Source: a virus
DNA length: 35,549 nucleotides
Strand: one strand, 5' to 3'
IMG/VR virus record: IMGVR_UViG_3300034954_000075
Coordinates: 1-35,549 of that record
Below the pieces are notes generated by a model, which was given only the letters and a program-made list of their open reading frames with translations, searched no databases and was not told the DNA's origin. A program made the translations under genes and the position numbers. Below, piece after piece: positions 1 through 29,334 of the stretch; the first letter of the stretch is position 1, and each line of letters opens with the position of its first letter.

Positions 1-169
1 CAGATTGAGATGGAGAAGAGCAGAAGTAATTAGACACGATCAAAACGCACATGATCGTATGAAAAGGTATCAATGTATTATGTTGCTTGATACTGCTACA
101 AAGTTTGCAGAAGAACCCTTTTGGCATGTAGCACAGGCAGATTTTACAGGCAGAATTTATTATGTGTCA
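1..169. repeat. Terminal overlap of the contig, left copy
   Basis: These 169 bases recur at 35381-35549 with one difference (A at 43, G at 35423). They lie inside the RNA polymerase gene, and joining the ends restores one continuous reading frame. This is an assembly overlap marking a complete circularly closed contig, not a biological terminal repeat. The difference changes CAA to CAG, both Gln, so it is silent and probably reflects population variation. Confidence 0.95.
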
Positions 170-1405
170 GGGATATTTAATCCTCAAGGTAATGATTTAG
201 CTAGAGCTTTGCATAGGTTTGCAGAAGGTGCAGCAATAACAGATGAGAAAGCAAAGAATTGGTTAGGTATTGCAGGTGCTAACTCTTGGGGTATGAGCAA
301 ATACAGTTATGAAGAACGTATTGAATGGTCTAAAACAGAAGGAGAAGCATTAGCCAGACAGATAGCAAGCAATCCAGAATCTTATATCAGCATATGGAGT
401 CAAGCAGAAGAACCATTTCAATTTCTTGCCTGGTGTTTAGACTTCAATGAATTACTTGAAGAGGGATATGGATATATAAGCAAGCATCCTGTCTTACTTG
501 ATGGTACAAACAATGGCTTTCAACATTTTGCAGCCATGTCTTATGACAATAAACTTGCAGCAAAGGTTAATTTAAAAAACTATGACGAGGTAGAGGACCT
601 TTATGAAGAGGTTAAAGATGAAGTTATAAATGAATTATCAAAGCAAGCAGATACTATTGCAGAAGATTGGTATCAACATCATCAAGTCATTACAAGAAAG
701 ATGATAAAGAAACCTGTGATGATGATTCCATACAGTGGTAAAACTTTTGGTATTACAAATGCTATCCGAGATTATTTTATGGCAAGCGATGAAGACTTGT
801 CTTGGAATAAAGATTGCTTTTTACATAATCATTATCTTGCAAAAATAATAGAGAAAAGTGTTAATAATATCTGCCCTAAATGTATAATAGTGATGAAATA
901 TTTAACAGAGATAGCAAGATGTTTTGGTAAAGAAGATAAAGATATGACATGGATTACACCTTCTAAGTTTTATGTTAAGCAGCATTATTACAAGTCTAAT
1001 ATAAAAAGAATTGCCACCAAACTGCATGCTACGACTGTACAGTTGTCACTTAATTGTAATACAACAGAGATTGATAAAAGAAAATCTACACAGAGTTTTG
1101 CAGCAAACTTTGTTCACAGTTTAGATGCTGCTAATGTACATTTAGCGTTAGAAAAAAGTAAAGCTAGTGGTCTTAATCAGTTCTGTACAATACATGATTG
1201 TTTTGGATCACCTGCTGCACATATAGAAGAATTTATAGGTTATGTAAAAGAAAGTTTTGTTGATATGTATAGTAAAAATTTATTAGATGATTTATACCAG
1301 CAAGCAGTAAAACAGTTAGATGATCCAAGCAAGCTACCCATACCACCAGACATAGGGGATTTTGATGTGTGTGAAGTTTTATTAGCACCATATGTGTTTA
1401 GTTGA
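1..1405 (+). CDS. gp1: T7-like single-subunit RNA polymerase, C-terminal part (partial; continues from window end)
   Basis: This is the catalytic half of the phage DNA-dependent RNA polymerase, which transcribes middle and late phage genes. The gene starts at 34392 and runs across the circular junction; joined it encodes 797 residues, against 883 in T7. Numbered on the joined protein, motif A is LLDGTNNGFQHFAAM with metal-binding Asp497. Motif B is KKPVMMIPYSGKTFG, with Lys566 and Tyr574 equivalent to T7 Lys631 and Tyr639. Motif C is IHDCFG with Asp729. The upstream NFVHSLDAANV matches the conserved T7 segment NFVHSQDGSHL. All catalytic residues are present, so the enzyme looks active. SSB follows after a 92-nt gap. 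The break in the gene is only where the contig was opened. Confidence 0.97.
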   Translation, partial: RLRWRRAEVIRHDQNAHDRMKRYQCIMLLDTATKFAEEPFWHVAQADFTGRIYYVSGIFNPQGNDLARALHRFAEGAAITDEKAKNWLGIAGANSWGMSKYSYEERIEWSKTEGEALARQIASNPESYISIWSQAEEPFQFLAWCLDFNELLEEGYGYISKHPVLLDGTNNGFQHFAAMSYDNKLAAKVNLKNYDEVEDLYEEVKDEVINELSKQADTIAEDWYQHHQVITRKMIKKPVMMIPYSGKTFGITNAIRDYFMASDEDLSWNKDCFLHNHYLAKIIEKSVNNICPKCIIVMKYLTEIARCFGKEDKDMTWITPSKFYVKQHYYKSNIKRIATKLHATTVQLSLNCNTTEIDKRKSTQSFAANFVHSLDAANVHLALEKSKASGLNQFCTIHDCFGSPAAHIEEFIGYVKESFVDMYSKNLLDDLYQQAVKQLDDPSKLPIPPDIGDFDVCEVLLAPYVFS

Positions 1406-1497
1406 ACAAATGCGTGACAAGTAATTTTCTTGCGGTACTATCAGTGATACATCCAATATGGATGCAATTAAAAGAAAACTTAAACTGAAATTTCCAA

Positions 1498-2124
1498 ATG
1501 ATTAAATCAGAAATTATCAACATCACAACACCAGTGTGCCTATTTCAATTTGCATGGCTGGTAGAACCCGACACAAAATTTGATGCGTCAGGTATATGGC
1601 AGGTCGAATGTCTTATTGATCCAGAAAAATCACAAGATATAAGTGATCAATTAGATGGACTTCTTGAAAGATGGAAAACGCAATTAAAAATTGCTAATCC
1701 TAATAAAAAATTTAAACTTGCACCATTACCTTTTGGTTATGAAGACATAGATGGCAAGCCATACTTCAGAATCAAAACCAAAATGAAAGGTGGAGGAGTA
1801 AGGGCAGATGGTACACAGTGGAAACAAAGACCACCTGTTTTGTTTAATTCTGATGGTTCTCCTATGACAGAAGACCAGAAGGAAAAAGTTAACAAGTGTG
1901 GTCCTGGTACAACAGGTCAAGTCAACATGCGTTGCAGTGGGTGGGAAAATCCAAGCTTTGGTGTTGGTATAAAGATCCAACCAGAAGCTGTCATCATTCA
2001 CAACCATGTCGAGTACACAAAAACCGCACAAGGCTACGGCTTTGAAACAGAAGAAGCAACCATCGAAGAAGAGAAACCCAAAGCGAAAGCAGGGTTTGAA
2101 ACAGTCGGAGCAGACGAATTTTAG
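1498..2124 (+). CDS. gp2.5: Single-stranded DNA-binding protein, T7 gp2.5-like
   Basis: The 208-residue protein resembles T7 gp2.5 (232 aa), which coats single-stranded DNA and coordinates the replisome. It sits between RNA polymerase and endonuclease I, as in T7. The first ~175 residues would form the OB-fold core. The C-terminal tail is low-complexity, rich in Glu and Lys, and ends in GADEF; an acidic tail with a terminal Phe is the hallmark by which gp2.5 contacts polymerase and helicase. The tail is encoded in DNA shared with the next gene (overlap 2006-2124). No Shine-Dalgarno sequence is visible before the ATG. With no phage DNA polymerase in this genome, the tail's usual partner would have to be the helicase or a host enzyme. 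Confidence 0.88.
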   Translation: MIKSEIINITTPVCLFQFAWLVEPDTKFDASGIWQVECLIDPEKSQDISDQLDGLLERWKTQLKIANPNKKFKLAPLPFGYEDIDGKPYFRIKTKMKGGGVRADGTQWKQRPPVLFNSDGSPMTEDQKEKVNKCGPGTTGQVNMRCSGWENPSFGVGIKIQPEAVIIHNHVEYTKTAQGYGFETEEATIEEEKPKAKAGFETVGADEF

Positions 2125-2485
2125 AAGTAAGTTTGAAGCTGCAATAGCAGCTACATTACAAGCAAATAAAGTTCCTTATACCTATGAAACACTTGATGTT
2201 AGCTACCAAATCAGTTGCATTTATAAGCCTGATTTCATCCTTGACAACGGCATCTGTATTGAAACTAAAGGCTTCTTCTCAAAAGAGGACCGCAGAAAAC
2301 ATGTTGCGATCAAGACGCAACGACCCGACCTAGATATTAGGTTCTGTTTTCAAAACAGCAAAGCAAAATTGAGTCGTGGCAAAAGAAGTTTAACCTATGG
2401 TGCTTGGGCTACTAAGCATGGGTTTCTTTGGAGTCACGGCTCTATCCCTGAAGAATGGATGAATGAAAACACAAGAAAAAATTAA
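2006..2485 (+). CDS. gp3: Endonuclease I / Holliday junction resolvase, T7 gp3-like
   Basis: The 159-residue protein matches T7 endonuclease I (149 aa), which resolves branched DNA and helps degrade the host chromosome. Catalytic residues are visible: Glu44 in FRSKFE, Asp76 in KPDF, Glu86 and Lys88 in ETKG, the equivalents of T7 Glu20, Asp55, Glu65 and Lys67. The ATG at 2006 is the only ATG before the domain and gives a 38-residue Lys-rich N-terminal arm, longer than in T7. A TTG at 2096 would give a T7-like length instead. From the ATG the gene overlaps SSB by 119 nt in another frame, where SSB encodes its disordered tail. Confidence 0.9.
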   Translation: MSSTQKPHKATALKQKKQPSKKRNPKRKQGLKQSEQTNFRSKFEAAIAATLQANKVPYTYETLDVSYQISCIYKPDFILDNGICIETKGFFSKEDRRKHVAIKTQRPDLDIRFCFQNSKAKLSRGKRSLTYGAWATKHGFLWSHGSIPEEWMNENTRKN

Positions 2486-2582
2486 CAACGCAAAACAAAG
2501 AATTAAAGAACTTGAATGTCTTATCAAACATTGGGAGAAAGATGACACAAAGCAAGTATCTCAGAAAAGAACCATGCCCTGA
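2463..2582 (+). CDS. Possible 39-residue helical peptide between endonuclease I and primase
   Basis: This short reading frame starts MKTQEKINNAKQRIKELECL and looks like a single amphipathic helix or coiled coil. It overlaps the end of endonuclease I (to 2485) and the start of primase-helicase (from 2542), filling the gap in a region where genes are tightly overlapped. The codons read like protein and there is a weak purine-rich stretch upstream of the ATG. I do not recognise a family. It may be a real small gene or a chance frame. Confidence 0.35.
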   Translation: MKTQEKINNAKQRIKELECLIKHWEKDDTKQVSQKRTMP

Positions 2583-4149
2583 GTGTGGCAGTAAAGATAA
2601 CCTAGCCATCTATGATGATGGACATGGTTACTGTTTTGGTTGTGGCTATACGCAGCAACCACAAAAAGATAAACCCAGAAAATCTTTTGTAAAACCAGTG
2701 AAGAAACCATTACTTAAATTTGTTACACCAAAAGCATTGCCAAAGCGTGGACTTTCGCACGAAACTTGCGAACTGTTTAACTACGGAATATCTGAACATA
2801 ACGGTCAACCAGTACAGGTTGCTACCTATGAAGACAAGTTAGGTAGACAGGTTGCACAGCATATTAGATTTCAAAACAAAAAATTTATCTGGCTTGGTGA
2901 TGTAAGTGATCTACAACTATGGGGCCAGAGATTATGGAGACAAGTTAATACAGGTAATATGTTTGTCACTATTACAGAAGGAGAGATTGATTGCATGTCA
3001 GTCTCACAGGCACAAAATAACAAGTATCCTGTAGTAAGTTTGCCTTCGGGATCACAGTCGGCTAATAAATATATAGCTGCAAATCTGAAATGGTTATCTC
3101 AATTTGTACGGATAGTAATTTGTTTTGACAGTGACGAGCCTGGCATGGTTGCTGCCGAAAAAGCAATTAAAATCTTACCTCCTGGTAAGGCAGCAATATG
3201 TAGACTCCCTAGAAAAGACGCTAATGAAATGCTCATCGCAGGTGAGGGGGAAGAACTTAGAGATCTCCTATGGAAGGCAACACCTGTTAGACCAGATGGC
3301 ATCCTTAACGCATCTAACCTATGGACAGAGCTAACAAAGAAAGGCAGTAATAGTATTTGTTCTTTTCCTTTTCCAGAGCTAGATAAGTTCTGTAAAGGGT
3401 TTCGTAAACAGCAGATGCTTTGTATTGCAGCAGGTAGTGGTACAGGTAAGTCAACTATATGTCGTGAACTTGCACATCACTTTATGAAGAATAGTTTGAC
3501 CGTAGGTTATATAGCTCTTGAAGAATCGGTACAAAGAACAATGCAGGGGATACTCGGTGTAGAGATGAATAAACCCCTGCATCTTGAGGATAATGTAGAA
3601 GAAACAGAAGGGCTAAAACAATCGTTTGACAGACTGTTTGGTACAGGAAAACTATTCTTATATGATCACTTCGGTTCTATTGATCCTGATAGATTAGTCG
3701 AACAGATACAATATCTTGCAACAGCAGAAGGTGTAGATGTTGTTATCTTGGATCATTTAACAATAGTTGTTTCTGGTATCAGTGACCTTGATGAGAGAAG
3801 AGCTTTAGATGTGGTCTGTACAAAGCTTAGACAGGTAGTTGAATCTACTGGTATAGGTTTAGTTATTGTTTCTCACTTACGTAGACCAGAAGGCAAAGGA
3901 CATGAAGAAGGTAATAAAGTAAGTCTTAATCATTTAAGGTCTAGCCATTCAATAGCACAACTATCTGATTTAGTAGTTGCCTGTGAAAGAAATCAGCAGT
4001 CAGAAAGTTATGCAGAACGAGCAGAACTACAGTTAAGAGTATTGAAGAACAGACACACAGGAATGACAGGACCAGTAGATAAATTATTGTATGACGAAAA
4101 GACAGGAAGGCTTGTAGTACCTATGGAATCTTATTTTGGAAACAAATGA
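2542..4149 (+). CDS. gp4: Bifunctional DNA primase-helicase, T7 gp4-like
   Basis: This 535-residue protein makes primers and unwinds DNA at the fork; T7 gp4A has 566 residues. In order it has a zinc-binding domain (Cys12, Cys15, Cys31, Cys34), a TOPRIM primase core (TEGEID with Glu146; FDSDEPG with Asp196 and Asp198), and a RecA-type hexameric helicase. The helicase shows Walker A GSGTGKST with Lys303, Walker B VVILDH with Asp404, the HLRRPEGKGHEEG loop, and an arginine finger in CERNQQ (Arg483, like T7 Arg522). I chose the ATG at 2542 because GGGAG lies just upstream; a TTG at 2512 would add ten residues. The stop overlaps the exonuclease start as ATGA. No polymerase gene follows, which is exceptional for this position. 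Confidence 0.95.
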   Translation: MTQSKYLRKEPCPECGSKDNLAIYDDGHGYCFGCGYTQQPQKDKPRKSFVKPVKKPLLKFVTPKALPKRGLSHETCELFNYGISEHNGQPVQVATYEDKLGRQVAQHIRFQNKKFIWLGDVSDLQLWGQRLWRQVNTGNMFVTITEGEIDCMSVSQAQNNKYPVVSLPSGSQSANKYIAANLKWLSQFVRIVICFDSDEPGMVAAEKAIKILPPGKAAICRLPRKDANEMLIAGEGEELRDLLWKATPVRPDGILNASNLWTELTKKGSNSICSFPFPELDKFCKGFRKQQMLCIAAGSGTGKSTICRELAHHFMKNSLTVGYIALEESVQRTMQGILGVEMNKPLHLEDNVEETEGLKQSFDRLFGTGKLFLYDHFGSIDPDRLVEQIQYLATAEGVDVVILDHLTIVVSGISDLDERRALDVVCTKLRQVVESTGIGLVIVSHLRRPEGKGHEEGNKVSLNHLRSSHSIAQLSDLVVACERNQQSESYAERAELQLRVLKNRHTGMTGPVDKLLYDEKTGRLVVPMESYFGNK

Positions 4150-4877
4150 CTTTATTAATTGACGCTGATTGGCTCGTTTTCACCTCATGTATTAACGCTG
4201 AAAGAGAATATGAATGGATGAGAGACTTGTGGAGCTTTAAGTTTGATGCACAAGAAGTACATGAAATAATTGATACAAGAATTAAGCGTTACCAAGCAAT
4301 AGCTGAAGGTGATAAAGATGTTGTTATGTGCTTTACTGAGTACCCAACATTTAGACATACGATATATCCAGAGTACAAAGCTAATAGAAAAGAAAAAAGG
4401 AAGCCTTGTAGATATAGAGAAACGATAGAACAAGTTAAAGACAAATATAGATCGGAAAGCTATCCAGGTTTAGAGGGAGATGATGTTCTTGGACTTCTTG
4501 CAACTAGCAAAAAATATCCAGATCCCATTGTTGTATCAATAGATAAGGACATGAGATCTGTACCTTGCACACTATTAGCAGGTGATGACATGGAACTTAT
4601 AACCAAACGTAAAGCTGATAGACATTGGATGATACAAGCTCTTACAGGTGACAGTACTGATAACTACTTTGGTATAGATAAGGTAGGACCAGTAACAGCA
4701 GAAAAGATATTAGGTGAAGCTAAAACACTTGAACAAATGTGGGAAAAGGTAGTAGCTGCGTATGAGAAAAAGAAATATAAATTTGCTGATGCTGTTCTTA
4801 ATGCACAGCTTGCAAGAATACTGAGAGATGGAGATTTTGATTACAACACTGGAGAAGTATCTCTCTGGACTCCATAA
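4146..4877 (+). CDS. gp6: 5'-3' exonuclease, T7 gp6-like
   Basis: The 243-residue protein is a FEN/5'-nuclease homologue of T7 gp6 (300 aa), which removes primers, degrades host DNA and aids recombination. Visible motifs are IDADWLVF (Asp6, Asp8), YKANRK (77-82), LEGDDVLG (109-116), DKD (133-135), GDSTDN (168-173), and a helix-three-turn-helix GIDKVGPVTAEKIL (176-189). The C-terminal SLWTP parallels YLWRP in T7. The gene is translationally coupled to primase-helicase through a 4-nt ATGA overlap. In T7 the DNA polymerase gene lies between these two; here nothing does. Confidence 0.93.
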   Translation: MTLLIDADWLVFTSCINAEREYEWMRDLWSFKFDAQEVHEIIDTRIKRYQAIAEGDKDVVMCFTEYPTFRHTIYPEYKANRKEKRKPCRYRETIEQVKDKYRSESYPGLEGDDVLGLLATSKKYPDPIVVSIDKDMRSVPCTLLAGDDMELITKRKADRHWMIQALTGDSTDNYFGIDKVGPVTAEKILGEAKTLEQMWEKVVAAYEKKKYKFADAVLNAQLARILRDGDFDYNTGEVSLWTP

Positions 4878-4880
4878 AAA

Positions 4881-4920
4881 AACACCAACAACGCAGTAGC
4901 ATGGGCTGTTGGTATTTCTT
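4881..4920 (+). terminator. Possible terminator after the replication genes
   Basis: ACCAACA (4884-4890) and TGTTGGT (4907-4913) form a 7-bp stem with a 16-nt loop, followed by ATTTCTT. It begins four bases after the exonuclease stop, before the first structural operon. The loop is long and the T tract interrupted, so termination may be partial. Confidence 0.45.
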
Positions 4921-4945
4921 AGTTGCCTGGATAAGCATATCAACC

Positions 4946-4974
4946 TTATCACAGAAATTATATACTGCTATACT
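4946..4974 (+). promoter_or_regulatory. Candidate sigma70-type promoter for the structural operon
   Basis: TTATCA (4946-4951) is followed after 17 bp by TATACT (4969-4974); each is a partial match to TTGACA and TATAAT. It lies in the 141-bp gap between exonuclease and the first small structural gene. A perfect TTGACA at 4987-4992 has no good -10 partner before the ATG at 5019. No phage-polymerase promoter motif was identified here. Confidence 0.35.
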
Positions 4975-5018
4975 TTATTCTATAAATTGACATATACTAA
5001 ATATAAATCTTACTAATC

Positions 5019-5222
5019 ATGTCATCTGAAAAACTACCAGTAATTACAGATGAAATGATTTTTGCCTTAGATCAAATCTTTCCTAATCGTCATCCTGATT
5101 TGTCTTTATCTGATAGAGAGGTATGGTATAGAGCAGGGCAACGGTATGTTGTTGACTTCCTGATCGAACAACAAAAAAGGCAAAAGGATACCATGCTCAA
5201 TCAATCAGTCTTGGAGAATTAG
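5019..5222 (+). CDS. Small conserved-type protein upstream of portal
   Basis: The 67-residue acidic protein starts MSSEKLPVITDEM and contains the segment DREVWYRAGQRYVVDFL. I recall similar short proteins in front of the portal gene in cyanobacterial T7-like phages, but cannot assign a function. There is no membrane segment or Cys motif. It is the first gene of the morphogenesis block and is followed after 2 nt by the next gene. The start lies in TAATCATG without a Shine-Dalgarno sequence. Confidence 0.7.
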   Translation: MSSEKLPVITDEMIFALDQIFPNRHPDLSLSDREVWYRAGQRYVVDFLIEQQKRQKDTMLNQSVLEN

Positions 5223-5224
5223 CC

Positions 5225-5449
5225 ATGTGCGTCGGCAGAAGACCATCCCCACCACCTTTACCAAAACCCAGGCCAACAGCACCAAGACCTGAACAAACTG
5301 CTCAACGTGTAGTGATTGGATCGCAAAGGGCTGAAGGGGGAAGAAGAAAAACACCAACTCAAAGAACTAGAAGAAGGTTAGGTACACAGTCATTAAGAAT
5401 ACCTTTACTGGCTCAAGAACAGACAGGAACAGGTAATCTTAGGTATTAA
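5225..5449 (+). CDS. Small Pro/Arg-rich protein starting Met-Cys, possible virion protein
   Basis: The 74-residue basic protein begins MCVGRRPSPPPLPKP; Pro is concentrated at the N-terminus and Arg in the centre. It occupies the position of the small T7 genes 6.5-7.3 before the portal. The Met-Cys start also occurs in the next gene, in the gp14 homologue here, and in T7 gp6.7 and gp14. A role as a minor virion protein (gp6.7 or gp7.3 type) is a guess from position and composition. Two-nucleotide gaps on both sides suggest translational coupling. Confidence 0.65.
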   Translation: MCVGRRPSPPPLPKPRPTAPRPEQTAQRVVIGSQRAEGGRRKTPTQRTRRRLGTQSLRIPLLAQEQTGTGNLRY

Positions 5450-5451
5450 TT

Positions 5452-5760
5452 ATGTGTATATTTAGCAACAGAGGAAGTCAAGCCGTTGTGCAACCCACAT
5501 CAACTTTTCGTGATGCTCCACCGATTGTGACAGGATCACAAACTGGTGTTGCTAATCCGAAAGATACTGAGAAGGCAACAGAAGAATTAAAAATTAAAAG
5601 ACAAAAAGAAGAAGGAACTTATTTAGATCCAAATCTTAGTAGGCTTGAAGAAGCTTTAAATCCAGGTAGTGGTAGGAGTAACAGAAGACGTTTTAGTAGA
5701 AAAGGAGCTATTAGGAACAGCAGAAGAGGTTCTAGTAGTAGCAGAGGAAGAAGATCTTAA
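5452..5760 (+). CDS. Small basic protein starting Met-Cys, possible minor virion protein
   Basis: The 102-residue protein begins MCIFSNRG, has a charged middle (about residues 45-75) and ends in an Arg/Ser-rich tail resembling nucleic-acid-binding tails. It shares the Met-Cys start and position with the preceding gene and may correspond to T7 gp7.3 or gp6.7. It is followed after two bases (TAATTATG) by the portal gene. No enzymatic motif is seen. Confidence 0.65.
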   Translation: MCIFSNRGSQAVVQPTSTFRDAPPIVTGSQTGVANPKDTEKATEELKIKRQKEEGTYLDPNLSRLEEALNPGSGRSNRRRFSRKGAIRNSRRGSSSSRGRRS

Positions 5761-5762
5761 TT

Positions 5763-7346
5763 ATGGAATACTCAACACAAAAACAAACAGCAGCAGGTAG
5801 ATACGCACAACTACAAAGTGCAAGATCTACCTTTGATAGAGAAGCAAAAGAATCTTCTAAGCTGACAATTCCAAGCTTGATACCTGAGAGTACAACAGGT
5901 ACAAGATCTAAAATCAAAACACCTTTTCAAGCTGTAGGTGCTAGAGGTGTAAACAGTCTTGCATCTAAACTTTTATTTGCATTGCTACCACCATCAACTG
6001 CTTTCTTCAAACTAAGTATTGATAGTCTTGAACTGTTAAAGCAAGGACAAGAAGGATTAGAAACAGAAATAGATAAAGGATTACGAACAATAGAAACAGC
6101 TTTGATGAATGAGATAGAGATCTCTAACGATAGGGTTGCAATGTTTGAAGCATTGAAACATCTAATCGTTGGTGGGAATGTTCTTCTCTATCTCACAGAT
6201 GATGGACTAAAAGTATATCCACTATCAAAGTTTGTATGTAAAAGAGATGCAGTTGGTAATGTATTAGAAATCATTACACAAGAATCAATACACCCAAACG
6301 CACTATCACCAGAGTTCTTAGAACAAATCAAAAAGAAAGAGAACTATGATGAGAAAACAATGGATAGTGACCTTGATATATACACATACGTCAAGAGAGT
6401 AAACGATGACTTCATGTGGTATCAAGAATGTAAAGGAGAAAAAATACCAGGTACTGATGGTAGATCAAAGGTAGATGTATCACCTTGGATAACTCTCAGG
6501 TTTGTTCGGATAGATGGTGAAGATTATGGTAGAGGATATGTAGAAGAATACAGAGGAGACTTAATTAGTTTAGAAGCTTTGATGCAAGCAATCATAGAAG
6601 GTGCAGCAGCTTCCGCTAAAACTTTGTTTCTTGTAAATCCTAATGGTGTAACCAGAGCAGCGACCCTAGCCAAAGCTCCTAACGGTGCAATACGAGAAGG
6701 AAGTGCAGCAGATATATCTGTGATGCAGGTCGGTAAGGCTGCTGATTTCAGTGTTTCTCAGGCTGTTATGCAAACTATTACAGGTAGATTAGAGTATGCC
6801 TTTCTGATGGCTAGATCTGTTCAGAGAGATGCAGAAAGAGTAACAGCAGCAGAAGTTACCATGATGGCTAATGAACTAGAGAATAGTCTTGGTGGTATCT
6901 ACTCCATACTTACTCAAGAGTTTCAACTACCTTATCTTAAACGTAGGATGCACATGCTTGTACGTTCTGGTAAGGCTCCAAAACTACCAGAAAAAATAGT
7001 TAAACCTAAAATTGTTACAGGTGTACAAGGTCTTGGTCGTGGTAATGATCGCAATAAGCTTGTTGAATTTATTGGCACAGTAAGTCAGGCTTTAGGTCCA
7101 GATATAATGCGTCAGTACATGAATGTAGATGAAGCTATAAAACGACTAGCAAACTCAATAGGAATAGATACTGCTAACCTAGTGAAGACGCAAGAAGAAA
7201 TACAGGCTGAGATGGAAGCTATGCAACAGCAGCAGCTAATACAACATCTCGGACCTGCTGCTCTTGGATCTCCATTACTTGATCCACAGAAAAATGCAAA
7301 TGCACAACAACTAGCGGAGGAAACCAATGCCGAGCAAGAAACCTGA
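5763..7346 (+). CDS. gp8: Portal (head-tail connector) protein, gp8-like
   Basis: The 527-residue protein matches T7 gp8 (536 aa), the dodecameric portal through which DNA enters and leaves the capsid. It begins with a Gln/Ala/Ser/Arg-rich helix and includes SLASKLLFALLPPSTAFFKL and ARSVQRDAERVTAAEV, both typical of podoviral connectors. The last ~60 residues are Gln/Glu-rich and probably flexible. Its 3' end overlaps the next small gene by 20 nt. Length, order (portal-scaffold-capsid) and motifs agree, so the assignment is firm. Confidence 0.95.
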   Translation: MEYSTQKQTAAGRYAQLQSARSTFDREAKESSKLTIPSLIPESTTGTRSKIKTPFQAVGARGVNSLASKLLFALLPPSTAFFKLSIDSLELLKQGQEGLETEIDKGLRTIETALMNEIEISNDRVAMFEALKHLIVGGNVLLYLTDDGLKVYPLSKFVCKRDAVGNVLEIITQESIHPNALSPEFLEQIKKKENYDEKTMDSDLDIYTYVKRVNDDFMWYQECKGEKIPGTDGRSKVDVSPWITLRFVRIDGEDYGRGYVEEYRGDLISLEALMQAIIEGAAASAKTLFLVNPNGVTRAATLAKAPNGAIREGSAADISVMQVGKAADFSVSQAVMQTITGRLEYAFLMARSVQRDAERVTAAEVTMMANELENSLGGIYSILTQEFQLPYLKRRMHMLVRSGKAPKLPEKIVKPKIVTGVQGLGRGNDRNKLVEFIGTVSQALGPDIMRQYMNVDEAIKRLANSIGIDTANLVKTQEEIQAEMEAMQQQQLIQHLGPAALGSPLLDPQKNANAQQLAEETNAEQET

Positions 7347-8736: not shown

Positions 8737-8889
8737 ATGGCAAAACTTAATCTTAGCCAGATAAAAAAGCTGAAAGCACATTCAGTTCATCACACACCTA
8801 AACACATGAACCTTATGAAGAAGCTTATGCGTGAAGGTAAATCATTTAAAGCTGCACATACAGCAGCACAAAAAGAAGTAGGCAAATGA
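8737..8889 (+). CDS. Small His/Lys-rich helical protein
   Basis: The 50-residue protein starts MAKLNLSQIKKLKAHSVHH. The pattern HHTPKHMNLMKKLMREGKSF...AHTAAQKEVGK resembles short proteins I recall from cyanophages and large DNA viruses. I use the ATG at 8737, just after the upstream stop, rather than an ATG at 8680 deep in the previous gene. It overlaps the next gene by 4 nt (ATGA). The many Met, His and Lys residues in a helix suggest a nucleic-acid or capsid contact, unproven. Confidence 0.65.
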   Translation: MAKLNLSQIKKLKAHSVHHTPKHMNLMKKLMREGKSFKAAHTAAQKEVGK

Positions 8890-9140
8890 GTCTTAAAAGA
8901 TGGTTTAAAGAAAAGTGGGTAGATGTTAAAACAGGTAAGCCTTGTGGAAGGCAGAAGGGTGAAAGTCGTGGCTACCCCGCTTGCAGACCATCAAAAAGAG
9001 TAAGTAGTAAAACACCAAAGACTACCAGTGAAATGAGTAGTAAAGAAAAGGCTAGATTTAGAAGAGAAAAGACAGGTTCAAAAAGAATTAGTTACCAACA
9101 TAGAAGAAATAAAAACAGAAAAAAGTTAAGACTTGCATAA
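8886..9140 (+). CDS. Small basic protein with KWVDVKTGKPCGRQKG motif
   Basis: The 84-residue, strongly basic protein begins MSLKRWFKEKWVDVKTGKPC. The stretch through RGYPACRPSKRV, with two Cys, is a recognisable small domain shared by marine phages and some large DNA viruses; I believe it is a catalogued domain of unknown function but will not name the number with certainty. The C-terminal half is Ser/Lys/Arg-rich. It is coupled to the previous gene by an ATGA overlap. Role unknown. Confidence 0.75.
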   Translation: MSLKRWFKEKWVDVKTGKPCGRQKGESRGYPACRPSKRVSSKTPKTTSEMSSKEKARFRREKTGSKRISYQHRRNKNRKKLRLA

Positions 9141-15339: not shown

Positions 15340-17640
15340 ATGACTAACAGTTTTCAAAGCACAGCTTTTCAATCCTCTGCAAGACCTGTAGATACTTTTG
15401 TACGACCCCCTAGTGTTCAACCTAAAACAGATTTGGAAGAATTAGCAGAAGCATTGCAATCAATAAACCCTGCAATACAAAGTTTTATAGGTTCAAGAAT
15501 AAAAAAAGCAATAGAGAGAGAAGAAGCAGAAGGCACAGAACAAGCTATAGAAGATGCTGCTAAGAATTTTAAAGATATAAGTAGAGGTGTTAAAAAAGCT
15601 GATGGTGAAGATGCTGCTAGACAACTAATAGGTGGAAGTATTTTTGCTGATCGTGCTTATCAAAGAACTAAAGCACAGATTTTAGGTAGTAACTTGGCAA
15701 GTACTTTGTCTAATAGTTATTCAACTACACAGGTTGATGGCAGATCTTTAAATACTTTTTCTTTGCAATCACCACAATTTCAAACATGGTTAGAAGGAGA
15801 GAGATCAAAAGTTGTTGATCAGTTAAGTGATGTAAATCCTACATATGTCAATAAATATTTTTTACCAAAGTTAGCAGATGCTACAGCTACTGTAACCTCT
15901 AGTCATATCAAACAACATCAAGAATATAACCTTGAAAAATTAAAAAACTTAGCTGTTCCTTTGGTTAAAGGTTTAATAGTTAGTGATGATGAAACAGACC
16001 TGCAACTTATATCTAACTTTGAACAAAGCATGAATGATTTAGGTCTTGTTACAAAAGACAGAAGTGACCTTAATAAAACCATAGTTAATGTCTTAATAGA
16101 TCAAGCAGAAGCAGTCGGTCTTTCTGGTGGTGGTGATATGGAAGGAGCAGAAGATATTTTAGATATTGCTTTACAGTTTCCCTATGGTGCTGATGGTAAG
16201 TTAAACCTTACTGCTCATCCTGATTATCAAAGTAAAGTAAATGATTTAAAGAAATCAATTAACAATTACATTTATGAATATGAAAATCGTAAAGATGTAG
16301 AAAGAAAAAGAATACAAAGAGAAGATACTGTTAATCAGTTAAAACAATTTGCAGAAACTGGTGATGCTCAAATTATCAGTGATCTTATAAAAAAATATCC
16401 ACTTGATGCTACAAAAATATCTACATCTGGTGTAGCTATTGATGGTAATACACTTGATAGATCTGCACAGTTAGAAGCAAACATGATAAGTGGTAATTTT
16501 GAATCATCAAAAGATGCAAGTATAGCAGCTTTACAATGGTATCAAGACCCTAGAACACCAAAAACAGTACAGAACAGAAATAGATTAACTCAGTTATTAG
16601 ACACTGCTGAATCTGTAGAAAGAGGTGATTATACAGAAATCAATAAAGGTCTTACAGAATTATTAGGTCAACTAAAAGGTGAGTTTAGTAGTGCTGATTT
16701 TATTACATCTATGACAGGCCAACTAAATGACAAAGGTTCTCGTAAAGTTACCGACTTCTATAACAAAGCAAAATTAGAACTGTATCAGTATCGTCTTAGC
16801 GAAGAAGGCCGTAATGCAACCACTTTAGAAATTATTGAGAAGATAGAAGAAGTTAAAGATAAATATATTAAACAAGCAAGAAAATTAAATCCAGGTATCA
16901 CTATTCAATCAGGTAAAGATGATGAAAAAGAAAAAGATGACATGAGTGATATTGAAGGTGATGCTGATAGTAATTTAGAAGCTGGTTTTTTCAGTGATGA
17001 TGACACACCTACCACTGTTACTGTTGAAAAAGGAGATACTTTAACTCAACTAGCAGATTCTTTTAGTACAACAGTAGAAGCTATAAAAAAAGCTAATAAT
17101 ATTACCAATGAAGATTTTATAAGGGTAGGACAAGAGCTAATTATGCCGATAACTGAATCAATCACACCCACAATAACTGCAAGTAGTAAACAACAGGCTA
17201 TTGTTACAGCAGCAAAAGAGTTAGGAGTGAAACCAGAAGATCTTGCTTCTGTAATTTCACAAGAAACAATGGGTACTTTTAATCATCAGATAACAGGTGG
17301 TGAAGGTGGTAATTACAAAGGTTTAATTCAATTTGGTATTCCAGAACGTAAAACATATGGGTATAGAGATGATATGACCTTTGAAGAACAGATACTTGGT
17401 CCAGTTGTACGTTTCTTAAAAGATAGAGGTGTTAAACCTGGTCATGGTGTTAAGGAGATATATGCAGCTATATTGACAGGTAATGTATCAACTCTTCAAA
17501 GTGATGGTCTAAAAAGAAAAGATTCTTTTGGAACATCGGTTGAAAGTGCATTACCAGAACTACGTCAAGGAGGTTCTCATTACAACAATGCCCTTGATTT
17601 CCTATCAGAACAAGGAAAGTTTAAACAAAATTCTAATTAA
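15340..17640 (+). CDS. gp15: Internal core protein gp15-like with C-terminal LysM and lysozyme-like domains
   Basis: The 766-residue protein is at the gp15 position (T7 gp15, 747 aa), part of the core ejected to form a channel across the periplasm. The first ~530 residues are helical. A LysM peptidoglycan-binding module follows (about 560-604: VEKGDTLTQLADSF, IKKANN, GQELIMPI). The last ~145 residues resemble a lytic transglycosylase or lysozyme: ISQETMGTF with a candidate catalytic Glu642, GEGGNYKGLIQFG, then helices. In T7 the transglycosylase is at the N-terminus of gp16, so the wall-cutting activity appears relocated here. Catalysis is inferred from motif pattern only. Confidence 0.82.
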   Translation: MTNSFQSTAFQSSARPVDTFVRPPSVQPKTDLEELAEALQSINPAIQSFIGSRIKKAIEREEAEGTEQAIEDAAKNFKDISRGVKKADGEDAARQLIGGSIFADRAYQRTKAQILGSNLASTLSNSYSTTQVDGRSLNTFSLQSPQFQTWLEGERSKVVDQLSDVNPTYVNKYFLPKLADATATVTSSHIKQHQEYNLEKLKNLAVPLVKGLIVSDDETDLQLISNFEQSMNDLGLVTKDRSDLNKTIVNVLIDQAEAVGLSGGGDMEGAEDILDIALQFPYGADGKLNLTAHPDYQSKVNDLKKSINNYIYEYENRKDVERKRIQREDTVNQLKQFAETGDAQIISDLIKKYPLDATKISTSGVAIDGNTLDRSAQLEANMISGNFESSKDASIAALQWYQDPRTPKTVQNRNRLTQLLDTAESVERGDYTEINKGLTELLGQLKGEFSSADFITSMTGQLNDKGSRKVTDFYNKAKLELYQYRLSEEGRNATTLEIIEKIEEVKDKYIKQARKLNPGITIQSGKDDEKEKDDMSDIEGDADSNLEAGFFSDDDTPTTVTVEKGDTLTQLADSFSTTVEAIKKANNITNEDFIRVGQELIMPITESITPTITASSKQQAIVTAAKELGVKPEDLASVISQETMGTFNHQITGGEGGNYKGLIQFGIPERKTYGYRDDMTFEEQILGPVVRFLKDRGVKPGHGVKEIYAAILTGNVSTLQSDGLKRKDSFGTSVESALPELRQGGSHYNNALDFLSEQGKFKQNSN

Positions 17641-25935: not shown

Positions 25936-26166
25936 ATGCTAAATCGCATCTGTCAAATTTTAAGTATCATCTCATTTGTTATGGTAGCTTCCATGAGTGG
26001 TGGGGCGTACTTTGGTTACAAGTATGTAACTTCAGAACAGTTCCAAACAAAGATGATGAATAAAGTTTTAGGTAATATACAAGGCATGATGCCAAAGCTA
26101 TTGGATAAAGGATTACCTAAGACAACAGGAGAATCTTTACCAATACCCAAAGGGTTAGGAATTTAA
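25936..26166 (+). CDS. Small membrane-anchored protein
   Basis: The 76-residue protein has one N-terminal membrane segment (about 5-30, IISFVMVASMSGGAYFGYKY), then a basic amphipathic helix with IQGMMPKLLDKGLPK and a Gly-rich end. I recall a similar protein upstream of a similar partner in T4-like cyanophages, but cannot name a function; a role at the inner membrane, perhaps in lysis or secretion, is only a guess. A sigma70-type promoter lies upstream. The next gene starts directly after its stop with TTG. Confidence 0.75.
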   Translation: MLNRICQILSIISFVMVASMSGGAYFGYKYVTSEQFQTKMMNKVLGNIQGMMPKLLDKGLPKTTGESLPIPKGLGI

Positions 26167-26796
26167 TTGGAAATACCCGATATAGGTATTGTTGAAATAT
26201 ATATTCCTAACGTTCCAGAACCTTATAGTCATCATTATATTACTGTAACTGAACCACCTAACATTGATGTTCCTGGCTGTACTTATCAGCATCGTGATAT
26301 AAAAAATACTGGTAATCGTAATTTGTTATTGGAAGATCCAAATGGTGTATTTACAACGTGTGATTTTCCGTTTCCTGGGTTTGTTCCTCTTGATTACACA
26401 CCTCAAAATATCATTATTACAGAGCAAGCACCTGTCGATAACCAAGAAGATTCTTCAACAGGCAAGCAAAATACAGAAATACCAGAAGCTAAAAAAGAAG
26501 AAATTGTAATACCACCCTGTCCAAGTTCTAAAGATCAGAGAGTTGGAGACTTTCGTAACGAAAAACGATTGGAACGTGTCATTTCACATAAAAGAGGGGA
26601 TGATGGGATTGAATGTATAACTATCTATGAAGATGTTCCCTTTGTCGATCAATACATCCCAGAACCTAGCACTATTGTCTCTACTGCTATTATTGGCCTT
26701 GTGGCTGCGAGTAGCCCTTTTATTCTCAATTTAATAAAACCAGCTATTAAGAATATCGTTAAAAAACTTACAAAAAAGAAAGATAAAGTAGAATAA
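26167..26796 (+). CDS. C-terminally anchored protein with TTG start, cyanophage type
   Basis: The 209-residue protein begins at a TTG directly after the previous TAA (EIPDIGIVEIYIPNVPEPYS after the start). Segments PPNIDVPGCTYQHRDIKNTG, LLLEDPNGVFTTCDFPFPGF and QRVGDFRNEKRLERV look strongly conserved and I recall close relatives in T4-like cyanophages. A membrane segment lies at about 173-195 (STIVSTAIIGLVAASSPFIL), followed by a Lys-rich cytoplasmic tail; there is no signal peptide. Four Cys could form disulphides. Function is unknown. It converges on the minus-strand operon and ends before a shared hairpin. Confidence 0.8.
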   Translation: MEIPDIGIVEIYIPNVPEPYSHHYITVTEPPNIDVPGCTYQHRDIKNTGNRNLLLEDPNGVFTTCDFPFPGFVPLDYTPQNIIITEQAPVDNQEDSSTGKQNTEIPEAKKEEIVIPPCPSSKDQRVGDFRNEKRLERVISHKRGDDGIECITIYEDVPFVDQYIPEPSTIVSTAIIGLVAASSPFILNLIKPAIKNIVKKLTKKKDKVE

Positions 26797-26802
26797 GTAT
26801 AT

Positions 26803-26846
26803 GTAGATAAGCCTTACCACAGCCCGTGGCTTGTCTACTTTAATTT
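26803..26846. terminator. Hairpin terminator between convergent operons
   Basis: GTAGATAAGCC (26803-26813) pairs with GGCTTGTCTAC (26828-26838) over 11 bp with one wobble and a 14-nt loop, followed on the plus strand by TTTAATTT. On the minus strand the downstream side is also AT-rich. The minus-strand stop codon (26835-26837) lies in one arm. It probably ends transcripts from both directions. Confidence 0.7.
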
Positions 26847-27422
26847 ATGAGTATGTGGGATAACTTGATTTGGTGGAATATTAACAACAATATCGTCACA
26901 GGTAACTGCACTAGGAGTATTAGGTTTGAAAGTAACACCAAGTTTCGCTTGCTCCGCACAAATCTGAAGACGATACAAGCTAACCTCCATCGCTAATTTT
27001 TTATATAGTAATTCTTGATTTTTTATATTCACTTCAGTTGCTTTATGACAAAGAGCAGGTGACTTGCCTAATGGAATATTAAACTGCATACTGATTCCAT
27101 AATTGAGATTATAATTATCCTTCTCAAATCTAGGAGTCTCTTGAATATACTTTACCTCTCCAGTATCTTCGTCATATATATTCTGCCTAGTGACATATTC
27201 TATTGGCCTGTTAAATGACCAACTATCGGTTAAATATGGAGTGATTGTAAGACTAGGAGAAGCACAAACTATACCCTGACTCATTCTGTAAGATGGCATG
27301 GCTGATGGTGTTATCATTGTCGCATTATTATTTACAACACCACTAGCCTGACTTTGAGGAGAAGCTACTGTTGTATTAGCCAAAACCCTTGCAGGGCAAA
27401 GGATTATAGCTATTGTCCAAAT
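26835..27422 (-). CDS. Putative secreted Cys-containing protein (ATT start suspected), last gene of minus operon
   Basis: From ATT at 27422 the product has 195 residues: a hydrophobic stretch WTIAIILCPARVLA, a likely signal-peptidase site (VLA-NTT), Asn/Ser/Thr-rich sequence, then YNLNYGISMQFNIPLGKSPA and a helical part with LYRLQICAEQAKLG. Four Cys lie in the mature part, suiting a periplasmic or exported protein. The frame extends upstream to an ATG at 27581, but that stretch lies inside the preceding gene and reads as low-quality Arg/Asn/His-rich sequence. No ATG, GTG or TTG stands just before the signal. The start is therefore uncertain; function unknown. Confidence 0.65.
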   Translation of the reverse strand: MWTIAIILCPARVLANTTVASPQSQASGVVNNNATMITPSAMPSYRMSQGIVCASPSLTITPYLTDSWSFNRPIEYVTRQNIYDEDTGEVKYIQETPRFEKDNYNLNYGISMQFNIPLGKSPALCHKATEVNIKNQELLYKKLAMEVSLYRLQICAEQAKLGVTFKPNTPSAVTCDDIVVNIPPNQVIPHTHKLK

Positions 27423-27841
27423 GTAGTTGTAGTTTCTGAAGTAGTGCTTGTATTTATTTGCCTTGTTATTGTCGTTACTGTGTCTAACCCTGGTGTGATT
27501 AAAGTTTCTTGGATTGAGAAAGCTGCACCGTTGTTTACGATAGACCATTGAGGTATAGCTTCTAAGTTTGGCGAAGTCCAACTAAAATTTACTCCCCCAA
27601 CTGTTTGGTTGTTCGTAGTCGTAGGAGTAGGGTTGATATATCCTGTTTCAGATTTGATATTATGTCCTGACGCTGAGTATGTGTAACCTGTGCGATATTG
27701 GTGGCTTGTGATAGTTTCATTTATTATTGTTTCGGAAGTACTTGAAGTCTGAGACCCACCCGAACGAAATTGAGGTACTACAGGAACAGCAAGTGTTCTT
27801 ATGGGTAATGCTAATAAAACCAGTAACCAAAGTCTAGTCAA
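27410..27841 (-). CDS. Putative secreted Thr/Ser-rich protein
   Basis: The 143-residue protein begins with a clear signal peptide, MTRLWLLVLLALPIRTLA, with cleavage expected before VPVVPQF. The mature part is very rich in Thr, Ser, Asn and Gly, with few charges and no Cys, and should be beta-rich and extracellular or surface-bound. It overlaps the upstream gene by 8 nt and the downstream frame by at least 13 nt, forming one operon. No family recognised. Confidence 0.75.
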   Translation of the reverse strand: MTRLWLLVLLALPIRTLAVPVVPQFRSGGSQTSSTSETIINETITSHQYRTGYTYSASGHNIKSETGYINPTPTTTNNQTVGGVNFSWTSPNLEAIPQWSIVNNGAAFSIQETLITPGLDTVTTITRQINTSTTSETTTTFGQ

Positions 27842-28349
27842 TCGTAATAGTAACCTTAGTAGATCCTATGCAACTTGTACCCGATCCACCTGCGGTACAG
27901 GTATGAACTCCAGAACTTAGTGAAGTAAGTGCAAGGTTGCCAGCAGTACCGCCTGATCCTACTGTTGTCTGTCCACCTAATACTGGTAATGCTGCGATAC
28001 CACTAGAAGGAGTTACAGCAGATGGGGTGGCATCTCCCATAGTTACGGATTCTGTTTTACTAAATGCTGAACCTGCTGTTGTAATACTTGTATCTGTCTG
28101 AATCATCGCTGGAACGCCATTAGTCAACGAACCAACATTGATACCACCAATCTTTCCTGATGTTGTAGTATCTCCTACAGTTACAGATGGTGTTATGTTG
28201 TTTCCGCTAAGACTATATGTAGTACCTACTTTATTAGTAACTGAATAAGGCATATCAACAGTTATTTGTGCAGAGGTTACAAATTCCTGTTTTATATCAG
28301 CAAATGCAGCCGTTGGTAAAAATAAAAGTAAAGCAAATAGTTTTTTCAT
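27834..28349 (-). CDS. Putative secreted Gly/Thr/Ser-rich beta protein
   Basis: The 171-residue protein begins MKKLFALLLFLPTAAFA, a textbook signal peptide with AFA cleavage before DIKQEF. The mature part has the composition of an extracellular beta-structure: VTVGDTTTSGKIGGINVG, SVTMGDATPSAV, then a Cys pair near the end (HTCTAGGSGTSC) that could form a disulphide loop. Its start overlaps the membrane-protein stop as ATGA. It could be an exported adhesin-like or fibre-like subunit; that is inference from composition only. Confidence 0.78.
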   Translation of the reverse strand: MKKLFALLLFLPTAAFADIKQEFVTSAQITVDMPYSVTNKVGTTYSLSGNNITPSVTVGDTTTSGKIGGINVGSLTNGVPAMIQTDTSITTAGSAFSKTESVTMGDATPSAVTPSSGIAALPVLGGQTTVGSGGTAGNLALTSLSSGVHTCTAGGSGTSCIGSTKVTITID

Positions 28350-28600
28350 TGAATACCTACCTTAGTGTCTTTATTGTCTACTATTTTAGCAGTGTTGTTG
28401 GGCTTCTTTTTGTTAACGGAGATACCGTATGAACCTAAAACCCCACTGGTTAAACCTGCCAAAAAAGCTCCGTCATTACGAATCTTGTCCATGTATCCAA
28501 GAGTCATCATCGCTAAAGACCAACAAAGAATCATGAATCGGACAACGTGACCAAAAAGTTCAGCCCAATCCGTACCTTCTTTTTCGTCTTGATCTTCCAT
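28346..28600 (-). CDS. Small two-helix membrane protein, holin-like, first gene of minus operon
   Basis: The 84-residue protein has an acidic N-terminus, two hydrophobic segments (about 19-37, VVRFMILCWSLAMMTLGY; 44-62, GAFLAGLTSGVLGSYGISV) and a Lys-rich C-terminus. This plan fits a class II holin, which makes holes in the inner membrane at lysis, but also any small transporter or anchor. No endolysin or spanin is adjacent; instead three secreted proteins follow on the same strand, coupled by an ATGA overlap. A holin is the leading guess for lysis in this genome. Confidence 0.65.
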   Translation of the reverse strand: MEDQDEKEGTDWAELFGHVVRFMILCWSLAMMTLGYMDKIRNDGAFLAGLTSGVLGSYGISVNKKKPNNTAKIVDNKDTKVGIQ

Positions 28601-28667
28601 GAAAAGGCAGTAACTATGGCAAACTTAGCAAATATTGGTATGTTTGGAAAGTAACACAATAGTAATT

Positions 28668-28833: not shown

Positions 28834-29154
28834 ATGAACCACAAAGAGTTCTTCAATATTCTTATTGGTAAACCACCTCTTGAAGTTGAGTTGGAAATAG
28901 AAATGAAATGCAGAGAAGTAAATGAATTATCTGAAAGTTATTTAAAAGCGTATTCTTTTGCTTTAATAAAAGAAAACAGATTACAAGATCTACTTATCAT
29001 AGCTGCTATGCAACGCATACAAGATACTGAAATTAAACTGATGCGATATGAAATGGCAGAACATCATCGAAAAAAGAATCTTAAAGTGACAAAAAAATAT
29101 AAAAAGAAAACTTTACTCGACAGGATCAAGGCTATGTTGGGCATGTTCAGATGA
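28834..29154 (+). CDS. Hypothetical helical protein
   Basis: The 106-residue protein begins MNHKEFFNILIGKPPLEVEL, is mostly helical, and ends in a strongly basic stretch (KKYKKKTLLDRIKAMLGMFR). It starts one base after the previous stop. Its 3' end overlaps a gene on the opposite strand by 42 nt, tail to tail. No family recognised. Confidence 0.65.
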   Translation: MNHKEFFNILIGKPPLEVELEIEMKCREVNELSESYLKAYSFALIKENRLQDLLIIAAMQRIQDTEIKLMRYEMAEHHRKKNLKVTKKYKKKTLLDRIKAMLGMFR

Positions 29155-29334
29155 TCTGTTGTCTTCCCATAACACCTTGTAATAATACATTTTACTACCT
29201 GCTGAATTTTTTCTTTCTATAGTTTCAGTAATATTGCCATACTTTTTTTTATATGTATTAGCTATGACAGAATAGTTCTTTCTAGATACACGATCATTAA
29301 GTTGGAATCTTTGTCCGATTAGCTTATTAGGCAT
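29113..29334 (-). CDS. Small SH3-like beta protein on the minus strand
   Basis: The 73-residue protein begins MPNKLIGQRFQLNDRVSRKN and continues with strands such as SVIANTYKKKYGNITETIER and a YYYKVLWEDNRSSEHAQHSL segment. The alternating pattern suggests an SH3-like or Tudor-like barrel, and the pattern looks like a real protein I recall in cyanophages. It is alone on its strand, converging on the previous gene with a 42-nt overlap and divergent from terminase small subunit. Function unknown. Confidence 0.68.
   Translation of the reverse strand: MPNKLIGQRFQLNDRVSRKNYSVIANTYKKKYGNITETIERKNSAGSKMYYYKVLWEDNRSSEHAQHSLDPVE

Follow-up and report, generated by a model that had tools for sequence, protein, structure and literature searches.

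We find from sequence comparison that a set of four to six predicted membrane and exported proteins moves as a unit between unrelated phages of marine picocyanobacteria, and we suggest that this cassette may be the missing envelope-breaking machinery of cyanophages. Prochlorococcus and Synechococcus are the ocean's most abundant photosynthesisers, and the cassette offers a concrete six-gene candidate for the way in which cyanophages break their envelopes. Its protein families and T4-GC numbers are already public, as hypothetical proteins. In the open literature searched we found no description of the cross-family cassette, of its all-or-none pattern or of its selected overlap, and no paper naming DUF6450 or DUF6322. 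Even if its function is not lysis, the cassette would be a conserved multigene envelope unit common to unrelated phage families.

The analysed stretch, hereafter the window, is a 35,549-base IMG/VR virus record with T7-like gene order: phage RNA polymerase, primase/helicase, exonuclease, portal, scaffold, capsid, tail, internal virion proteins, tail fibre and terminase. At its 5' end (region 1-7346) the record opens within the RNA polymerase gene, which makes the window a fragment. The larger ORFs scanned matched no DNA polymerase family, and the closest phage records include the single-cell virus AG-345-A17 and P-SCSP2; thus the window resembles the MPP-C cyanopodoviruses (PMC9860041). The terminase genes of P-SCSP1u (L006 34646-36699) and P-SCSP2 (L002 12832-14775) lie on opposite strands, which makes the terminase region of MPP-C phages look inversion-prone. 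An 84-aa protein with a DUF5872 match (8886-9140, plus strand) sits between the scaffold and capsid genes. The sole peptidoglycan-related domain found in the window is the LysM domain of an internal virion protein (15340-17640, plus strand), which also gives transglycosylase/peptidase-like profile matches.

Organization of the cassette

The earlier note had described four overlapping minus-strand genes at 26835-28600, and all four ORFs are present (Table 1). The two junctions and the divergent gap that had been named are there: the P4 stop and the P3 start share an ATGA at 28346-28349, the P3 stop and the TTG start of P2 overlap at 27834-27841 (8 nt), and the gap, about 70 bases long, lies beyond P4. 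The hydrophobic signals of the three exported proteins are likewise present; they end in the A-x-A sites AFA, TLA and VLA, and A-x-A sites are kept in the homologues. Two further claims stand only in part. The two helices ascribed to P4 are clear in the P-SSP7 homologue (GenBank note, hydropathy scan), whereas the second helix of the window P4 is only weakly hydrophobic. The unit does comprise the four genes, but it is larger, since the plus-strand N568 and N570 belong to it too.

Table 1. Features of the cassette region in the window
Feature	Position	Strand	Description
N568	25936..26166	+	Convergent partner, 76 aa, N-terminal TM helix; phrog_568, labelled 'plasmid stability'; T4-GC 414
N570	26167..26796	+	Convergent partner; Pro-rich, four Cys, one C-terminal TM helix, basic tail; phrog_570; PSSP7_042; T4-GC 234
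Hairpin	26803..26838	.	Between convergent N570 and P1; terminator-like
P1	26835..27581	-	Exported, four invariant Cys, TTG start within P2; phrog_1755/848, 'gp165' family; PSSP7_045; T4-GC 235
P2	27410..27841	-	Exported Thr-rich beta protein, 143 aa, signal end TLA; PF19847 (DUF6322); phrog_650; PSSP7_044; T4-GC 236
P2 3' end/P1 5' end overlap	27410..27581	-	172-nt dual-coding, P1 in the -1 frame of P2
P3	27834..28349	-	Exported, Thr/Ser/Gly-rich, 171 aa, signal end AFA; phrog_564; T4-GC 237
P4	28346..28600	-	Holin-like membrane protein, 84 aa; PF20048 (DUF6450); phrog_21865/721; homologue of PSSP7_043 (2 TM) and T4-GC 218
GTTACTTTCCAAACATA	28639..28655	-	Conserved motif upstream of P4, single copy in the window

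The operon genes do not behave as chance ORFs would. The best family matches reach 1e-56, and dN/dS values of 0.09-0.17 (medians among close relatives: P1 0.12, P2 0.17, P3 0.09, P4 0.09) indicate strong purifying selection. Homologues with conserved gene order, whose absence anywhere would have counted against the operon according to the earlier note, occur in hundreds of loci. Together with the coupled junctions and the all-or-none co-occurrence described below, this agrees with the functional unit that had been proposed.

Out-of-frame overlap of P1 and P2

The overlap between P2 and P1, to which the earlier note gave no weight, is the most unusual feature of the operon. The P1 start codon is formed by the last base of a P2 codon and the TG of a conserved Trp codon TGG. 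In T4-like loci the wobble base is A, so that P1 starts with ATG, 54-58 codons before the P2 stop; podovirus/siphovirus-type loci use TTG at codon -56 (145 of 156), MPP-B loci usually have ATG, and the P1 of P-SCSP phages has its own ATG and an ordinary signal.

Over the last 44 codons of P2 the -1 frame is open in 98.7%, 100% and 100% of the members of three lineages, versus about 20% expected given the P2 protein and the codon use of the family. No such excess was seen in the controls, which were the N-terminal portion of P2 and every part of P3. Synonymous-rate suppression in P2 within the overlap was not seen. Selection thus holds the frame open while tolerating change in the extra N-terminal segment of P1, whose signal, with its VLA end, finishes about 68 residues into the protein. 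Only the last residues of this variable extension before the signal helix, RNYNY/RYYKY, are conserved.

In three close relatives (L140, L148 and L151) the P1 frame contains no ATG, GTG or TTG upstream of the signal helix, back to the nearest in-frame stop. A programmed frameshift or a non-ATG start, considered on account of these three, was rejected as a general rule for P1 in view of the conserved ATG/TTG positions and the open frame; the three stand as exceptions.

Annotation pipelines truncate this overlap. The GenBank start of PSSP7_045 (L469 7103-7558) is too late and the signal peptide is missed; the true start is likely a GTG that lies within PSSP7_044, about 112 nt in. In P-SSP10 the P2 gene (L004 3720-4085) is unannotated and was found by its reading frame.

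Distribution among marine cyanophages

Relatives of P1 were found in 392 phage records with the window query and in 456 with the P-SSP10 query, and all matches with a named host are phages of Synechococcus or Prochlorococcus. P3 gave 325 matches and N570 404; the IMG/VR scans comprised at least about 600 candidate stretches. Among phages of marine picocyanobacteria the cassette occurs in myoviruses, both T4-like and TIM5-like, in siphoviruses and in T7-like podoviruses, which bears out the earlier idea of exchange between phage families. A host origin was rejected: a P2 scan of 84,980 cellular genomes returned only five contigs, from Prochlorococcus single cells and metagenome bins, all of which carry the same phage gene array, and P1 had no plasmid match.

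The gene order takes four forms. In window-like, MED4-type and TIM5-bin contigs it is P4>P3>P2>P1> facing <N570<N568; in T4-like phages P3>P2>P1> facing <N570<(g163, g162)<P4; in MPP-C phages of the P-SCSP type P4>P2>P1> facing <N570; and in the MPP-B phages P-SSP7 and P-SSP10 N570>P4>P2>P1> in line with terS>terL>. The siphoviruses MED4-117 and MED4-184/P-HS2 have the same six-gene convergent array as the window, with 59-71% protein identity in P1, P2, P3 and N570, although P4 is only 36% identical and the remaining phage is unrelated. The facing gene pair, which the earlier note had linked to T4-like cyanophages, is indeed also there. In P-HM2, P-SSM2 and syn9 (gp167-164), T4-GC 218, 414 and 234 are convergent with 235, 236 and 237, so that P3-P2-P1 face N570 and N568 as in the window; however, P4 lies in the N570 arm, opposite to its place in the window, and the site is beside hsp20 or hli and replication genes rather than the terminase. 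P-SSP7 (PSSP7_042-045) and P-SSP10 share with the window the N570, P4, P2 and P1 families and the out-of-frame overlap, but P3 is absent and all cassette genes run with the late genes, while in the window P4-P3-P2-P1 are inverted against N570. Thus the reverse orientation noted earlier is real in the window, but it is not intrinsic to the cassette, because the same genes run with the late genes in P-SSP7, P-SSP10 and S-SBP1.

The P1, P2, P4 and N570 families, all present in the window, are all-or-none in 17 phage genomes. Eleven have all four (P-HM1, P-HM2, P-RSM4, S-SM2, Syn19, P-SSM2, syn9, S-TIM5, MED4-117, P-SSP7 and P-SCSP1u) and six have none (P-SS2, P60, Syn5, S-CBS4, S-PM2 and the freshwater phage Pf-WMP4). 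Because the genomes are phylogenetically non-independent, this pattern is no more than suggestive. In S-TIM5 P4 lies far from the other cassette genes, yet it is retained, which points to a shared function rather than mere linkage.

As the cassette adjoins tail-fibre genes in podo- and siphoviruses, its products might be minor structural components that reach the particle. We regard this as very improbable: signal peptides would export the proteins, whereas tailed virions assemble in the cytoplasm; the S-TIM5 neighbours are labelled virion structural and the cassette genes are not; and no morphogenesis family was matched.

Predicted properties of the proteins

From their export and transmembrane signals the cassette proteins would reside in the cell envelope. 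The PHROG families of P1, P3, N570 and N568 have no assigned function beyond the label given to N568, and no sequence homologue was found in the PDB. P3 is a paralogue of P2: in P-HM1, P-HM2 and MED4-117 the P2 profile also matches at the place of P3 (4e-5 to 3e-4). P4 fits a holin in size and TM count, and the larger forms of N570 have four conserved Cys.

In the structure model of P1 (pLDDT 64, pTM 0.35) the signal is followed by a beta domain and then by a 40-residue helix, and the invariant Cys occupy positions 58, 130, 160 and 180 in the modelled 200-residue stretch. A fold search with this model returned only relatives from a viral library and noise from the PDB. In the P2 model (pLDDT 75) two polar strands of 24-25 residues flank a small beta domain, and Thr plus Ser make up about 35% of the protein. 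The PDB matches of this model are at noise level (Z 4.3 or less), with oligomeric beta pores and phage tail knobs at the head of the list. Although lysenin, aerolysin and PA-type pores are among the weak best matches, P2 as a membrane beta-barrel was set aside, as its strands show no significant alternation and Z is so low. An 8-strand barrel of the Ail/OmpX type, as expected of a lambda lom-like protein, does not figure among the fold matches.

Three exported beta-rich proteins with TM partners, and the long polar strands and pore- or knob-like weak matches of P2, could also belong to another envelope apparatus, for example a pore or fibre through which the infected cell would change in permeability, nutrient uptake or contact with other cells, akin to the curli module of pelagiphages, for which cross-family transfer of a secretion module has been reported (PMC9599517). 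We consider this quite unlikely, given that no CsgA/B/G or other curli family appeared among the Pfam or PHROG matches, that other secretion families show no similarity either, and that the fold matches do not exceed noise.

Proposed role in lysis

We suggest that the operon and N568-N570 form a noncanonical lysis and outer-membrane disruption cassette. Judged from genes and their predicted products, this is plausible, if somewhat short of probable. P4, with its helices in the inner membrane, would act as a holin or together with a holin, and N570 and N568 would be its inner-membrane partners. P2, its paralogue P3 and P1 would be exported by Sec and cleaved, would assemble in the periplasm or outer membrane and would disrupt or bridge the latter, doing the job of spanins without a lipoprotein. 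The cassette would then serve the last step of infection, the breaking of the cyanobacterial envelope.

Several observations favour lysis. The T7 interval between tail fibre and terminase holds the holin 17.5 and the spanins 18.5/18.7. In P-SSP7 and P-SSP10, N570-P4-P2-P1 lie with the late genes between the tail fibres and the terminase, that is, in the place of the T7 lysis cassette; in Syn5, which has no cassette, the same interval holds only the 1-TM protein gp47 and gp48 before terS. P-SSP7 and S-SBP1 have three sequential transcription classes, the last being that of maturation and assembly (PMC9860041). The all-or-none co-occurrence of P1, P2, P4 and N570, despite the unlinked P4 of S-TIM5, the purifying selection and the restriction to marine picocyanobacterial phages among host-named matches point the same way. 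So does the concentration of TM and exported proteins: outside the virion and enzyme genes, all of those in the window belong to the cassette, and nearly so in the complete P-SCSP1u, and the rest of the window gave no match to a holin, spanin or free endolysin family. Because the window is a fragment, this elimination argument is incomplete.

Lysis is also favoured by the selected P1/P2 overlap, as spanin genes typically come in overlapping pairs (PMC6139136). Two-component spanins, such as lambda Rz/Rz1 and the overlapped class of that survey, share with the cassette an out-of-frame overlapping pair, here P1/P2, N-terminal export or TM signals, an adjoining holin-like gene and, in P-SSP7, the lysis position. 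An i-spanin has an N-terminal TM segment and a periplasmic coiled coil; the P1 model has the 40-residue helix after the beta domain, but the P1 TM segment looks like a cleavable signal. Unlike spanins, the cassette proteins are larger and beta-rich, include a third exported paralogue and show no sequence similarity to them; the o-spanin lipobox Cys at the cleavage site is absent, the A-x-A sites of P1, P2 and P3, as read from the sequences, being without Cys across families. For want of a lipobox we do not classify the cassette as a spanin.

A spanin survey lists 20 Prochlorococcus and Synechococcus phages without a recognisable spanin and suggests that the outer membrane may simply be fragile; its authors point out that the spanin role could fall to an outer-membrane protein or to one with a C-terminal TM (PMC6139136). 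At least eight cassette carriers are on this list (P-SSP7, syn9, P-HM1, P-HM2, P-SSM2, Syn19, S-SM2 and P-RSM4, the last as pRSM4). The cassette-less Syn5, P60, S-PM2 and PSS2 are also there (PMC6139136), hence for cyanophages as a whole the cassette can be no more than part of the explanation. In a more specific proposal, the P2/P3-P1 exported pair with P4 and N570 would disrupt the outer membrane without a lipoprotein, as a new class of system that takes the place of spanins and that, dual-coding overlap included, was passed as a unit among myo-, sipho- and podoviruses of marine picocyanobacteria. This proposal seems to us unlikely as it stands.

Other observations speak against lysis. No protein has a lipobox and the cassette holds no endolysin. 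S-PM2, Syn5, P60, P-SS2 and S-CBS4 have none of the four genes, yet they lyse marine cyanobacteria. P1-P3 are larger and more folded-looking than classical spanins, and the structure models, whose confidence is low to moderate, resemble no known fold convincingly and show no significant barrel-type strand alternation. Finally, the exported genes run opposite to their neighbours in T4-like, siphovirus and MPP-C phages, as is often so with accessory genes.

The last point leads to surface modification or superinfection exclusion, where P1-P3, exposed in the periplasm or outer membrane of the infected cell, would keep other cyanophages from adsorbing or delivering their DNA; the cassette would then be a moron-like accessory unit handed on between phages with a common host. 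We hold this to be rather unlikely, though a serious contender. In the window phage the operon has its own orientation, hairpin and divergent gap; the cassette occurs in unrelated phages that share hosts; and some GenBank records give P3 homologues the name 'OMP1 protein'. In the siphovirus MED4-117 the cassette follows the tail-fibre gene J, the place of the outer-membrane gene lom in lambda. Compared with a lom-type moron, the window operon has the hairpin, and its promoter-like sites are no more than chance. However, exclusion genes usually vary between close relatives, while the cassette is near-core in the tested T4-like cyanophages and strongly conserved; and exclusion predicts early rather than late expression, while in MPP-B podoviruses the cassette is in line with the late genes.

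Of these functions we prefer lysis. The cassette is present in cultivable isolates and in the T7-like cyanophage S-TIP37, which carries P1 and whose genetic engineering has been published (PMC8776855).

Hairpin and divergent gap

The hairpin that had been proposed to bound the operon folds to -18.8 kcal/mol (z -4.4), with no shuffle equally good, and its stem is kept in relatives through paired changes, for example from ACAAG/CTTAT to ACGAG/CTCAT; by both measures it is more than chance. Its U-tract is weak, and the hairpin is missing from the output of a simple terminator scan. For the operon a -35/-10 promoter was rejected, as the number of sites found equalled that of shuffles. A separate 73-aa ORF on the minus strand (29113-29334), ahead of terS, had no PHROG match and no significant Pfam match. 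In the divergent gap, GTTACTTTCCAAACATA is possibly a promoter or leader. The motif GTTACTTYCCAAACATA at this position is conserved in about 149 relatives, and on the plus strand (28617-28655) it forms the last codons of a very small ORF, closing with MFGK and a stop (MANLANIGMFGK in the window).
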